Positions 38,931-60,189 of a DNA stretch of 64,000 nucleotides are shown here, one piece after another. The notes beneath the pieces were generated by a model. It had not been told where the DNA came from and searched no databases. It saw only the letters and a program-made list of their open reading frames with translations. The stretch comes from Dehalococcoidia bacterium (GTDB lineage Bacteria; Chloroflexota; Dehalococcoidia; Lucifugimonadales; Lucifugimonadaceae). The stretch's first letter is position 1. Each line of letters starts with the position of its first letter. The stretch covers positions 1-64,000 of the forward strand of contig SHXW01000010.1 in the NCBI GenBank assembly GCA_009693115.1, in the 5' to 3' direction. Position numbers and translations under genes: made by a program.

Positions 38931-39017
38931 TTAGACAGGCGCAGGGCGTGCAGTACCGGGGATTCGGGACCCACCACCCTAAACCCACTCCCTTGCAGGG
39001 AGAGGGCACACCTCCCA

Positions 39018-53841: not shown

Positions 53842-56800
53842 TCAGCGTTTGGAGCGGCGCCGCCAGCGGGAGCGGCGGTCCTTTGGTGACTTGCCGTTAG
53901 TGGGGGCGCCGGGAGCGCGGGCCCCTGCGAGGTCATCAGGACGTTCGGGCAGCGCCCACCCGCCCCCTTCTTCCTTGCCCCGCGTGGCCGGTTTGCGGGG
54001 TTTTATCTCGCCGGTCTGGCCGTCGGCGTGCGGGTCAGGGCGGATGCCCGGCACTTCCTTGAGATACATGCCGGTGGCCGAACCCTCTACGGACGCTATG
54101 AATTCCGGCGTGCCTTCTGCGACAAGGTTGCCGCCGCGCTCGCCCGCACCGGGGCCGAGGTCCACTATCCAGTCAGCATTCTTGATGAGGTCCAGGTGGT
54201 GCTCGATCAGCACGACGGTGTTGCCTGCGTCCACGAGCTTGTGCAGCACCTGCATGAGCTTTGCGCAGTCCTCGAACGACAGTCCGGTCGTGGGTTCGTC
54301 AAGTATGTAGAGCGTGCGCCCGGTTGACCGGCGCGATAGTTCCGAGGCCAGCTTGATGCGTTGCGCCTCGCCTCCTGAGAGCGTGGTGGCCGGCTGACCG
54401 AGGCGGATATAGCCCAGGCCCACGTCCTGCAGCGTGCTCAGCTTGTTGCGCAGCGACGGGATGTTCTCGAATATCTCCGCCGCTTCCGACACGGTCATGT
54501 CCAGCACTTCGGAGATGGACTTCCCCTTGAACTTGATCTCCATCGCCTCGCGGTTATAACGTGCGCCGCGGCAAACCTCGCACGGCACCGTCACATCCGG
54601 CAGGAACTGCATCTCTATCTGGACGTAGCCTGCCCCTGCGCAGGACTCGCACCTGCCGCCCTTCACGTTGAAGGAGAAGCGTCCCGGCCCGTAGCCGCGC
54701 GCCTTTGACTCGGGCATGGTGGCGAAGAGGTCCCGTATATGGGTGAACGCCGCCGTGTACGTGGCCGGATTCGAGCGCGGCGTCCGCCCGATGGGCGACT
54801 GGTCTATGTTGATGACCTTGTCTATCTGGTGCAGTCCCTCAACGGCGTCATGCTCACCCGGCCGGTCTTTGGCGTGGTAGAAGACCTGCGCCAGCTTCTT
54901 CTGAAGGACCTCGGTCACGAGCGTGCTCTTGCCGGAGCCGGATACGCCCGTGACGCAGACCAGACGTCCCAGCGGGAAGCGGATGTCAACATCGTTCAAG
55001 TTGTTGGCGCGCGCACCCCGGATGACGATTTCACTCCCGTTGCCGGACCGGCGTTCGCTGGGCAGTGGGATCTCTTTGCGGCCTGAGAGGTATGCGCCTG
55101 TGACCGATTCAGCAGACGCAAGGATCGTCTCAATGGGGCCTTCAGCCACTATCCTGCCGCCGTGCTCACCAGCGCCGGGCCCCATGTCAATGATGTGGTC
55201 CGCGGCCCGCATCACGGCCTCGTCATGCTCGACGATCAACACCGTGTTGCCGACGTCCCGGAGCGACTTCAGAGTGTCTATCAGGCGTGAGTTGTCGGCG
55301 GGGTGAAGGCCCACAGAAGGCTCGTCGCAGACGTAGAGCACGCCCATGAGGCCGGAACCGATCTGCGTCGCGAGCCGGATGCGCTGGCCCTCGCCGCCTG
55401 AAAGCGTCGACGCCGCGCGGTCGAGGGTCAGGTAGTCGAGGCCGACGCGGGACAGGAAGCCAAGCCGCGAGTCAATCTCCTTGAATATCTGAGCGGCTAT
55501 GGCCTGCTCCCGGTCGGTGAGGGGCTCACTTGCCGCCTCGCCGCCCGGCCACTTGCCCATGCGGCAGGCGACCACCCACTGGACCGCCCTTTCGACGGAC
55601 TGGCCGGTCACATCCATGATGCTCATGCCCACGACGGTGGCAGCCAGGGCCTCCGGCTTAAGCCGCAACCCTTTGCATGTGGCGCACGGACGCTGGGCCA
55701 TGTACCGCTCAAGGTCCTCGCGGACAGACTCGGACTCTGTCTCCGAGTAGCGTTTTTCCAGGGAGGGGATCACGCCGTCGAACCTGGTGTCCCAGCGGTA
55801 AACCTTGCCCTTCTGCGTGGTGTGCACCACCTCGACGGAGCTGCCCCTGGTGCCATACAGGACGGCTTCCAGGTCGGCAGGGTCCATGTCCTTCACAGGC
55901 TCATCCATGGAGAAGCCACGGGAGCGCGCCAGGCCTTCCAGCGTCGAGGCGTACCAGGGCGACATTGCGCCGGCATCTGACCATGGGGCGATGGCGCCAC
56001 CGGATAGCGAGCGTTCCCGGTCAGGCACCGCAAGGTCCGGGTCCACCTCCAGCCGGAAGCCCAGCCCGGTGCAGGTGGGGCAGGCGCCATAGGGTGTGTT
56101 AAACGAAAAGTTGCGCGGTTCCAGCTCTGCGATCGAGAGGTCGCAATGGATGCAGGCGAACTTCTCCGAGTAGAGGATGTCGTTCGGGTTAAGGGTCTTC
56201 GCCCCTGTCTTCTTCGCCTTTCCCGCCCTTGCCCCCGTGTCTTTCAGAGGGCCAACCTCGTCGTCATTCGCCGCTGCGGCATCTGCGACATTCCTCTTTC
56301 CCGTGACAGGCTTTCTGACACTCTTTCCACCACCAGAGGCGGTGGTCGAAGGCACCGCGGCCATGGCCCTGCTGCTGCGTGACACCGCTCCCGAATCGGC
56401 CTGCGGGACTATCGAGGCGACCACCGTCCCACCCGCCTGTTTCAAAGCCGTTTCTACCGACTCCGTGAGCCGGTTGCGGTCTGTATCGGAGCGGATGACG
56501 ACGCGATCAACGACTATTTCGATGTCGTGCCATTTCTGCTTGTCCAACTTGATCTGCTCGGACAGGTCTTTCACATCGCCGTCCACGCGCACACGCACAA
56601 AGCCGTCGCGCTGGGCATTTTCCAAGATCCCGGCGTGCTCGCCCTTCATGTGAGTCACCACAGGCGCCAGAACCAAGAGCCTGGTGCCGTGCGGCAGCTT
56701 CATGATGGAGTCCACGATCTGCTGGACGGTCTGACGCTGCACCGGGCGGCCGCACTTCGGACAGTGGGGCCTGCCGGCGCGGGAGAAGAGCAGCCGGAGG

Positions 56801-57126
56801 TAGTCGTAGATCTCCGTGACGGTACCGACGGTTGAGCGCGGGTTTCTGGACACGCCCTTCTGGTCAATCGAGATTGCCGGTGAAAGGCCGTCTATGTGGT
56901 CAACGTCCGGCTTTTCCATCAGCCCCAGAAACTGCCGGGCGTAGGCAGAGAGGGACTCTACGTAGCGGCGCTGGCCCTCGGCGTAGATCGTGTCAAAGGC
57001 CAGGCTCGACTTGCCGGAGCCGGACACACCGGTGATAACGACGAGCCTGTCGCGCGGGATGTCCACGCTGACGTTCTTGAGGTTATGTTCGCGTGCGCCG
57101 ACGACGCTGATGAAGGATTCTGGCAT
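53842..57126 (-). CDS. uvrA: Excinuclease ABC subunit A, with an extra loop and C-terminal tail
   Basis: UvrA finds bulky DNA lesions and loads UvrB. Both ATPase heads are complete: Walker [17 protein letters not shown] and [15 protein letters not shown], with signatures [14 protein letters not shown] and [14 protein letters not shown]. The UvrB-binding and zinc module are present ([17 protein letters not shown]...[15 protein letters not shown]...CEVC). The 1094 residues exceed the usual 940-980. One addition is an Ala/Ser/Lys-rich loop at about 237-312, just before the signature zinc finger; the other is a basic tail after [20 protein letters not shown]. Neither looks like a known domain. 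No SOS box was recognised upstream. Confidence 0.95.
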
Positions 57127-57486
57127 GGCGGAGGGGAGGTACGTCCAAGAGGGTGGCTGAACAAGGTGCCGCCCCCGTCAGGAGGGGCTGATGCAATGGT
57201 GCGAATGTCCGTCATCCTGAGTCCACCGACGTCCGCCCCGGCGGGTCGCCTGGACGAAGAACCACGTCATCAGCGTCCCTGTCCCGCCGGGATGGGGCGA
57301 GGCACTTACCCGGACCCAATCCTCTGACTACATGATGGCTCTTTGCCACTCTGAGTGCAGGCCCAGATCAGGACGATGACGCCCACCGGCGATCACGCGG
57401 GACTCTTCTCGCGCTGAACGCAGAATGACAAGGGATGTCTGGAACCCGGATTCTAGCAGCGGTGGCTGTTCACAGTGAGAAGCCTG
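57127..57486. other. Gap between uvrA and the transketolase-like gene
   Basis: These 360 bases carry no gene. Near 57398-57433 lies a diverged copy of the dispersed GACTCTTC...CAGAATGACA repeat also seen at 38888-38920. Part of the region must be the uvrA leader, but no promoter is clear. Confidence 0.45.
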
Positions 57487-60063
57487 TCAGCTTCTCCTCC
57501 GCCTCTGCCTGTCCACGAGGCCCAGCGCGGCCGCGTACACCGCCTCGGCGTCGATGTCGAAGTGCCGGTACAGGTCGGCACGCGACCCCGACTGGCCGTA
57601 GTGATCCACTCCCAGGTTGACCGATGGGCAGTCGAGCGCAGCGCCCAGGAACGACATGGCGTGCGGATGGCCGTCCTGCACTGTCACCACAGGCAGGCCA
57701 ACCTCGTTGTCAGCGAGCAGCCCGGTCGGGTCAAACCTGCCCGTGCCCTGCGCGGCTCCCTCATCAGCTTCCGCAGCGCGCACTTTGCGGTAGAGCAGAT
57801 CGGGACTTGTCACGCAGAACAGGTTGACGCCGATGCCCTCTTTTTCGAGCATCGGCACGGCGTTCAGGGCTTCGGGAAGCATCCACCCCACGGCAAACAG
57901 GTTGATCCCAGAGGGCAGGCCGGGCGCCGCAGAGCGGTAACGCCAGCACCCGCCGAGGACCGCCTGACGCAGATCATCAGGGACCGGGTCTGCGGTTTTG
58001 CCGCGACCCGCACCCTGACCCTCTCCCTCCCAGGGAGAGGGCATTTCGTGCTGGCCTGCCCCCTGCCGGGTAGAGGGCATTACAGGCTGGCTCTCTCCCT
58101 GCCGGGGAGAGGGCAATGCCTGCGGAAAGAGGCTCTGGTCAACGGGCTTGGTGCTCAGGCGCAGCAGATACGACTCGCCTTCGCCGCGGCCGATCTTCCG
58201 CACCGCGTCGAGCATGATCCATTCGATCTCCCGCGCAAAGCACGGCTCGTAGTACGTGATCCCCGGCAGGCTGATGCCCAGTTCCGGCGTGATCACGCCC
58301 TGGTGCATGCCTCCCTCCGAGGACAGCGTGACACCAGACGGCGTGGCGACAAGGATGAACCTGGACCCCATGTACAAGCCGCTGTTCAACTGGTCAAGCC
58401 CGCGGGCGACGAACGGGTCATAAACGGTGCCGAAGGGTATGAGGCGGCGGCCCGAATGCTCCTCGGCCAGGCCCATCTGCCCCAGGAGAAGCAGCATGTT
58501 GCCCTCGGTCAGGCCAAGTTCGATGTGCCTCCCGCCTGGGCTGTAAACCCACTTCAGCGTGCGAAGGGCGAAGCCCAGGAAGTCCGGCAGATCGTTGTAC
58601 GACCAGACGCCGGCGCGGTTGATCCACGTCGCCAGGCCCGTGGACGTGGCAACATCCGCCGAGACCGTGACGATGCGTTGCGAAGGCTCAGGCGATGTGC
58701 GGTCGAGTTCGACAAGCATGCGCCCGAAGGCGTCCTGCGAAGAGCAGTGCGCCGGGAAGTTGAGGTTCGTATCTGCGAAGGTAAGCGCGGGTTCCATGGC
58801 TGCCCGCCCCGAAGCGCCGGGGTGCGAGCCGCTGCGCTTGCCGGCGCCTCCGCCGTTGACATCTCCAGGCGGGACAGCAGATTTCAGCCGTTCCGCCGCC
58901 GCATGGATATATTCGGCCTCCGGCGACCCCTGCTTGAACAAGGTCCAGGGGTGCCCGGCGTCCATGCCCATTGCCGACGCCAGTTGCTGGAACTGCTCGT
59001 TTGTCAGGAGCGCGGCGTGGTTCCGCGGGTCGGCTGCGCTCTGCAGGCCCCATCCCTTGACCGTATATGCGAACACGACCGCGGGGCCGGGTGAACTGGC
59101 AGCCTCGCGATAGTGCCGGACAAGCGCTCCCACGTCGTGTCCGCCAAGGTTGGCGATGCGGTTGTGAAGGCCGGCGTCATCCACCTCATCGATGCAGCGC
59201 GCCAGGTCACGCCGCAGGGACCCGGCGCCGTCCAGCAGCTTCTGCCGCACCGTGTCCGTGGGAGCAACGAGGATGCTCTGATACTCCTCGTTGGGCATGT
59301 CATCTATGCGGCGGCGCAGGGCATGGCCGCCGGGGCGCTCCATGAGCTCGGTCAGGGAGTCGCCGTACTTAACGACATGGATGGACCAGCCGTTGACCTC
59401 GAACATCTCCTTGAACCGCTGGACGCGGATGCCAGGGACGACCCGGTCCAGGCTCTGCCGGTTCAGGTCAACGATCCACACGCAGCGCGATAGCCCGTCC
59501 AGCGCAGGCTCGGCCACCGCCTCCCAGACCGAACCCTGGTCAAGCTCGGCATCACCGATGTGCGCGAAGAACCGGCCCGACGTGGGGTTCAGGTTATGCG
59601 TCCCCAGATAGTCCCGCACAAGCGCAGCAAAGGCCGCAGAAGGCCCCGCCATGCCGACCGACCCGGTCGAAAAATCAACGCTTTCGGGATCCTTCGTCCG
59701 GCTCGGATATGCCTGCAGGCCACCGAACGCCCGGAACTTCTCCATGTACGCCTCGGGCAGGTTGCCGAGCAGGTACTGGATGGCGTGGAACACTGGCGAC
59801 GCGTGCGGCTTGACGGCCACGCGGTCGCCGGGCTGGAGCGTCTCGAAGTAGAGCGCGCTCAACAGCGCCGCAGAAGAGGCCGAGGACGCTTGATGGCCTC
59901 CGACCTTGCCCCCGTCCGGGTTGGGCCTGACGTTGTTGGCCCAGTGAACCATCGCAGCCGACAGCCACAGGACGCGGTCACTGACGCTCTGACGCACCGC
60001 CTGAAGGTGGTCGAGCGCCGGCCCGTGCAACGGACGTGAGAAGGGTTCGCGTGTTATAGCCAT
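57487..60063 (-). CDS. Transketolase/pyruvate dehydrogenase E1-like thiamine-diphosphate enzyme with inserted repeats
   Basis: The protein is a full-length ThDP enzyme of the transketolase/AceE type (858 residues). Landmarks are KVGGHQASSASSAALLSALYF, the ThDP motif IGDAELDQGSVWEAV...LNRQSLDRVV, GWGLQSAADPRNHAALL, and the middle-domain FVTVSADVATSTGLATWINR and GNMLLLLGQMGLAEEHSGRRLIPFGTVYDPFVARGLDQLN. Homodimeric PDH-E1 is the best fit, but the reaction is not proven. Between residues about 647 and 682 three tandem 12-residue units are inserted in frame (see repeat feature). GAGGG lies 5 bases before ATG 60063. LipA in the window would serve a PDH complex. Confidence 0.88.
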   Translation of the reverse strand: MAITREPFSRPLHGPALDHLQAVRQSVSDRVLWLSAAMVHWANNVRPNPDGGKVGGHQASSASSAALLSALYFETLQPGDRVAVKPHASPVFHAIQYLLGNLPEAYMEKFRAFGGLQAYPSRTKDPESVDFSTGSVGMAGPSAAFAALVRDYLGTHNLNPTSGRFFAHIGDAELDQGSVWEAVAEPALDGLSRCVWIVDLNRQSLDRVVPGIRVQRFKEMFEVNGWSIHVVKYGDSLTELMERPGGHALRRRIDDMPNEEYQSILVAPTDTVRQKLLDGAGSLRRDLARCIDEVDDAGLHNRIANLGGHDVGALVRHYREAASSPGPAVVFAYTVKGWGLQSAADPRNHAALLTNEQFQQLASAMGMDAGHPWTLFKQGSPEAEYIHAAAERLKSAVPPGDVNGGGAGKRSGSHPGASGRAAMEPALTFADTNLNFPAHCSSQDAFGRMLVELDRTSPEPSQRIVTVSADVATSTGLATWINRAGVWSYNDLPDFLGFALRTLKWVYSPGGRHIELGLTEGNMLLLLGQMGLAEEHSGRRLIPFGTVYDPFVARGLDQLNSGLYMGSRFILVATPSGVTLSSEGGMHQGVITPELGISLPGITYYEPCFAREIEWIMLDAVRKIGRGEGESYLLRLSTKPVDQSLFPQALPSPRQGESQPVMPSTRQGAGQHEMPSPWEGEGQGAGRGKTADPVPDDLRQAVLGGCWRYRSAAPGLPSGINLFAVGWMLPEALNAVPMLEKEGIGVNLFCVTSPDLLYRKVRAAEADEGAAQGTGRFDPTGLLADNEVGLPVVTVQDGHPHAMSFLGAALDCPSVNLGVDHYGQSGSRADLYRHFDIDAEAVYAAALGLVDRQRRRRS
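58015..58122. repeat. Three tandem 36-bp palindromic units inside the transketolase-like gene
   Basis: Units occupy 58015-58050, 58051-58086 and 58087-58122, each exactly 36 bases, all in frame. They read QALPSPRQGESQ, PVMPSTRQGAGQ and HEMPSPWEGEGQ in the protein. The DNA of each carries a CCCTCTCCC/GGGAGAGGG-type inverted repeat (perfect in the first and third). The same palindrome recurs as an intergenic element elsewhere in the window. Confidence 0.9.
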
Positions 60064-60189
60064 CTTCGCCCTCTATCAGACGGTGACATCCGCCTGCATG
60101 GAACAGACCGGCGCACCGCGGGAGCGGTTGCAATGATGGCGGTACGCCGCCCGGCGCACAAGGGCCGGGACGCACGAGTCTCGCACACA

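Follow-up and report, generated by a model that had tools for sequence, protein, structure and literature searches.

Among the repeats described so far, the one closest in layout to the element considered here is TM_ECO, a G/C-rich intrastrand triplex motif of the form 5'-CCCTCNCCC N3-6 GGGNGAGGG N3 GGGNGAGGG (Holder et al. 2015, PMC4666352). It was formerly named PIT, and the earlier work on it is that of Hoyne and Maher, going by its citation in PMC4666352. The motif occurs 3610 times in 262 proteobacterial genomes; in E. coli its copies are always intergenic and have neither promoter nor terminator activity, and only copies from E. coli have been shown to form a triplex, in vitro, the authors reporting no in vivo evidence (PMC4666352). 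It has so far been regarded as a proteobacterial intergenic curiosity with no assigned function.

Palindromes inside genes belong to another line of work. Those of Rickettsia, the rickettsial palindromic elements (RPEs), keep the frame of the functional, mutually unrelated protein genes in which they lie (PMC10969869, PMC2229807), and a 2024 review regarded such protein evolution outside Rickettsia as conceivable (PMC10969869). GTAG/CGTC REPs located inside genes (recB, uvrA and those of tRNA synthetases) had been listed before that review (PMC3733652), and HT dimers are rare among REPs (PMC3733652).

The locus described here brings these two lines together. The window, that is, the whole stretch of 64,000 nucleotides that was analysed, comes from a draft genome of 2.02 Mb in 40 contigs that belongs to the Chloroflexota (Dehalococcoidia-like). 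It contains the gene of an 858-residue enzyme with Transketolase_N, Transket_pyr and Transketolase_C domains, whose top family model is homodimeric PDH E1 (aceE TIGR00759, E=2.7e-57, under the model's cut-off) and whose nearest solved structures are those of E. coli PDH E1 (1l8a); the three domains and the structure match agree with the earlier note on this DNA, which had called the protein transketolase/PDH-E1-like. The nearest named orthologs come from Dehalococcoidia/Chloroflexota MAGs and are 57-61% identical. On sequence comparison, a three-unit segment of this gene is a frame-preserving insert of a repeat family dispersed across the genome (Table 1).

Table 1. Features of the E1-like gene, of its insert and of neighbouring DNA (window positions)
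Feature	Position	Strand	Remarks
PDH-E1 (AceE)/transketolase-like enzyme, 858 aa	57487-60063	minus	ORF, domain models, structure matches
Inserted segment, ~120 bp/40 residues	58002-58121	minus	linker between pyrimidine-binding and C-terminal domains; lacking in 102/102 orthologs
Unit 1 (PSPRQGES)	58086-58121	minus	palindrome with one mismatch, tail decayed; 21.7 bits
Unit 2 (PSTRQGAG)	58050-58085	minus	most decayed unit, tail decayed
Unit 3 (PSPWEGEG)	58014-58049	minus	exact palindrome CCCTCTCCC-TGGGA-GGGAGAGGG at 58019-58041
Second G-rich 9-mer GGGTGCGGG, putative third strand	58007-58015	minus	after linker TCA; one mismatch to published motif
12-bp tail after unit 3	58013-58002	minus	
Sole additional clear copy within the window	38965-39006	minus	36.4 bits, E=3.6e-8
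Second insertion in the E1-like protein, ~20 residues at ~397-423	58792-58880		G/C-rich, hairpin-forming DNA
Adjoining UvrA gene	53842-57126	minus	
Gly/Ala/Lys-rich stretch of UvrA, ~90 residues (228-317)	56176-56445		insertion-like appearance

The evidence for insertion is the comparison with orthologs. Between anchors at residues 636-705 the protein has 69 residues, and all 102 orthologs of full coverage have 24-31; of these orthologs 22 are from the same family and order, and 80, obtained by an alignment-based contig search where a search with a single protein gave none, are from named genomes of several phyla. The earlier note had proposed residues ~647-682 as an insert absent elsewhere, and had named a segment shared with orthologs from distant taxa as the mark of an old loop. 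A segment of ~40 residues is indeed missing from 102 of 102 orthologs, and not one of them carries it. As the same note had stated, the frame is kept, the reading frame being open across the whole 858-aa ORF, and the conserved flanks are intact: residues invariant among 15 aligned homologs are present on either side. The insert is predicted to be an unstructured loop: residues 650-693 stay below a pLDDT of 50 and lack secondary structure in a model whose mean pLDDT is 70.

The three units stand head-to-tail at 58014-58121; Tandem Repeats Finder gives a period of 36 at 58021-58115, and their pairwise identities are 27/36, 28/36 and 25/36. Three tandem units of 36 bases had been claimed from the outset, and that description stands. 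The accompanying statement that every unit is a palindrome applies exactly to unit 3 alone, with its 9+9, unit 1 having one mismatch and unit 2 being more decayed; likewise, the three-unit segment is real, but the insert measures ~120 bp (40 residues, ~649-688) rather than 108 bp, because unit 3 retains the 3' tail of the family, GGGTGCGGGTCGCG. The full layout of this unit is CCCTCTCCC-TGGGA-GGGAGAGGG-TCA-GGGTGCGGG-TCGCG; units 1 and 2 are without the second G-rich 9-mer, and unit 3 retains TCA-GGGTGCGGG. For a transcript segment of 134 nt the predicted fold still has a hairpin for each of the three units (-72.6 kcal/mol, z = -3.6).

The exact palindrome occurs in 44 copies in the 2.0-Mb genome, compared with 0-1 for a reversed-pattern control. 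A covariance model trained on 12 copies, that of the E1-like gene among them, finds about 100 genome sites of at least 20 bits; unit 3, itself in the training set, ranks second with 64.4 bits and fits the family consensus across 40 nt, tail included. Close pairs of sites all have the same orientation, with starts 33-45 bp apart; the starts of the pair in the window are 85 bp apart, the middle unit being missed by the model. The earlier note had placed the palindrome in many intergenic gaps of the window, and this was overstated, for there is one other clear copy along with weak remnants. Rfam gave no match in 57000-60100. Of 60 relatives, 28 have the palindrome, copy numbers over the 60 ranging from 0 to 144, a range as expected, judging from these counts, of a dispersed repeat that is gained and lost. 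The tail in the relatives G041, G030 and G046 is AGGGTGAGGGT.

What, then, is this element? Its C-rich 9-mer, 3-6 nt loop and complementary G-rich 9-mer are those of TM_ECO, with an exact stem in unit 3, and the 3-nt linker and second G-rich 9-mer GGGNGAGGG are found in the same unit with one mismatch. Across the genome, 27 of 109 sites show the 9-loop-9-3-9 layout when no more than one change is allowed in each stem, and 9 of 109 match the published pattern strictly; with exact stems the layout was counted in 14 copies of the fetched loci, and the reversed control had 0. At the third-strand positions that face the two A's (4 and 6), 26/27 and 23/27 of the copies have A or T, and a purine triplex permits A or T opposite these A's. 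The element can be said to have the published TM_ECO/PIT layout, and like TM_ECO it is multicopy and patchy across relatives. There are also differences: the published copies are proteobacterial, and intergenic in E. coli, whereas these are in a member of the Chloroflexota and partly intragenic, a departure in location, which describes the motif without defining its sequence; the third strand here is often GGGTGTGGG; and E. coli pairs are inverted, whereas the close pairs here are head-to-tail. The earlier note knew of no report of the element, but its layout had already been published as TM_ECO/PIT (PMC4666352), and intragenic REPs had been described for several bacteria (PMC3733652). What is new is that three traits come together: the repeat is of the triplex-motif kind, its host belongs to the Chloroflexota, and some dozen protein genes carry it in frame.

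The count of intragenic copies comes from a genome-wide search of the kind that the earlier note had proposed. At least 13 in-frame copies lie inside 11 protein genes: besides the E1-like gene, these encode CarA (two copies), valyl-tRNA synthetase (ValRS), an AddA-like helicase-nuclease (two), glycerol kinase (GlpK), an MmgE/PrpD protein (inside PF03972), a mandelate racemase family enzyme (MR_MLE), a hydantoinase (HyuA), an MFS transporter, with the element in a loop, and a double 3-hydroxyacyl-CoA dehydrogenase (3HCDH) and a double short-chain dehydrogenase (SDR), with the element in their linkers. In-frame calls were made from codon usage scored on both sides of every site, together with Pfam matches, and the count is a lower bound, since the stretches around matches were read and the model would overlook strongly decayed copies. 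The ORFs L049, L072 and L075 were left out, as the element is near the predicted N-terminus and the true start may lie downstream. Two further candidates, initially taken as intragenic or frameshifted on 150-nt codon scores, were dropped: C10:3215, where an upstream stop puts the site between genes, and C7:9588. In four element-rich relatives examined, 0 of 37 distinct exact copies lie inside genes, and the intragenic habit of the repeat is shown, as far as the genomes compared can tell, for this genome only.

For several of these genes the relatives provide a measure of length. ValRS has 76 residues at its site, compared with 60-63 in 15 of 17 relatives, the exceptions being G019 (71) and G020 (101), both with other sequence there. 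The two sites of AddA have 65 residues as against 28-37 in relatives, and 73 as against 34-42, and GlpK has 53 as against 19-24, one relative having 36. The CarA linker, with 73 residues compared with 37-56 in most relatives, is weaker evidence for insertion because it is hypervariable, a few relatives being nearly as long or longer. Taken together, the alignments support insertion in five genes: E1-like, ValRS, AddA (twice), GlpK and, less cleanly, CarA. The calls for PrpD, MR_MLE, hydantoinase, MFS, 3HCDH and SDR were made from ORFs, codon scores and Pfam, and MR_MLE was compared with three paralogs only.

The ValRS and CarA sites have a story of their own. In the ValRS of G020 (L283) a different palindromic repeat, of the CCTGAGCTTGTCGAAGG type, is in frame at the same place as the element here, and in the CarA of G002 (L241) a palindrome related to that repeat is in frame in the loop that carries the element here. 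Both loops look permissive because other palindromic repeats occupy them in G020 and G002. The two copies in CarA (L184:970-2196) face opposite ways (PSRFEGEGRGAGR ... HPLTPSLATKG); no other inverted pair was observed within a gene.

With regard to the rickettsial palindromes, the likeness in principle suggested by the earlier note holds, as other genes of the genome carry the element too. The shared trait is in-frame insertion in conserved protein genes, which the comparisons of E1-like, ValRS, AddA and GlpK bear out here. The difference is in the unit: RPEs are ~150 bp long and the unit here is 36-40 bp with a TM_ECO-type sequence, the two being told apart by their descriptions. GTAG/CGTC REPs resemble the element as short hairpin repeats, some of them intragenic, including in recB-type genes and tRNA synthetases; they differ in the GTAG or CGTC tag, which is not conserved beside the stem here, and in their HT dimers, which are rare, whereas close pairs here are head-to-tail.

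How did the insert arise? In the account that we favour, and consider probable, a dispersed TM_ECO/PIT-type repeat was inserted in frame in the linker of the E1-like gene, multiplied there, decayed, and was tolerated as neutral or nearly neutral DNA. One copy of the triplex-type repeat would have entered the inter-domain linker with the frame kept; neighbouring units would have arisen through head-to-tail multiplication or repeated insertion, and the older ones would then have decayed. The 40 residues, rich in Pro, Ser, Gly and Gln, may be tolerated by the enzyme as an unstructured loop, so that the copy would persist as a selfish or neutral element in a disordered linker. Ten or more further genes of this genome would have taken the same course. 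The element presumably lands mostly between genes, and would survive inside them only in frame and in a loop. Such survival needs no special design because the element is not specially stop-free: it has 4.49 of 6 frames open, compared with 4.53 for random 40-mers in this GC-rich window, and the idea that it is unusually free of stops was rejected on these figures.

Might the peptide be useful instead? An insert selected because the element gives a flexible or hydrophilic linker in a favoured frame is an unlikely explanation. Seven of the 13 intragenic sites, whose frames were assigned by eye, are in the PSPxxGEGxG frame, which is not the one most often open among the copies (P about 0.001 relative to the proportion of open frames), and this uneven use may point to selection for a hydrophilic peptide. 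On the other side, the bias is post hoc, concerns a small set of 13 sites partly found by codon score, and is seen in target proteins that are unrelated, for an element whose frames are open no more often than those of random 40-mers.

An origin as a classical REP, moved by a RAYT (Y1) transposase, would fit the size, the palindrome, the multiple copies, their clustering and the intragenic copies (PMC3733652). The enzyme is what makes this origin improbable, along with the missing GTAG/CGTC tag: no gene of the RAYT/Y1 family (Y1_Tnp, PF01797) was found in this genome, nor PF01797 in 57 of the 60 relatives. The RAYT route is unlikely because the transposase was found neither here nor, among the five checked relatives that are richest in the element, in G046, G041, G018 or G009, G030 being the exception with one match. 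Spread by slippage or template switching at the hairpin or triplex may be envisaged in its place, and the close pairs of the same orientation fit slippage.

Slippage could also have acted alone, expanding a local low-complexity linker unrelated to any dispersed element. The tandem 36-bp period, the hypervariable CarA linkers of relatives and the second insertion of ~20 residues (397-423) in the E1-like protein, which is not a dispersed repeat, all suit such an event; but unit 3, tail included, agrees with the family consensus along 40 nt (64.4 bits) and the same element is in ten other genes, which leaves it very improbable. An old conserved loop of the enzyme, palindromic by chance, has practically no probability left, being already refuted by 102 orthologs of several phyla with 24-31 residues instead of 69 and by DNA that belongs to a family dispersed across the genome.

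Insertion and tolerance of the dispersed repeat, then, would mean that such a repeat can lengthen working proteins, and a triplex motif in frame in core enzymes of one Chloroflexota genome ties this motif to the in-frame palindromes of Rickettsia. The E1-like protein, ValRS, AddA and GlpK are defined cases in which the effect of the inserted repeat peptide is testable. A wider reading is doubtful: core enzymes of the lineage would generally gain new linker segments from triplex-type repeats that enter permissive loops with a preference for one frame, and different palindrome families would independently enter the same loops (ValRS, CarA) in related genera.

Other insertions were observed along the way. 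The second one in the E1-like protein gives 53 residues between anchors, compared with 30-41 in 102 of 102 orthologs; its DNA is not a dispersed repeat, the best other match having E=0.04. No clear palindrome was found in the Gly/Ala/Lys-rich stretch of UvrA. In the glycerol kinase (L208:504-2192), a further insertion at ~176-205, unrelated to the triplex-motif element, makes 48 residues where relatives have 17-25.
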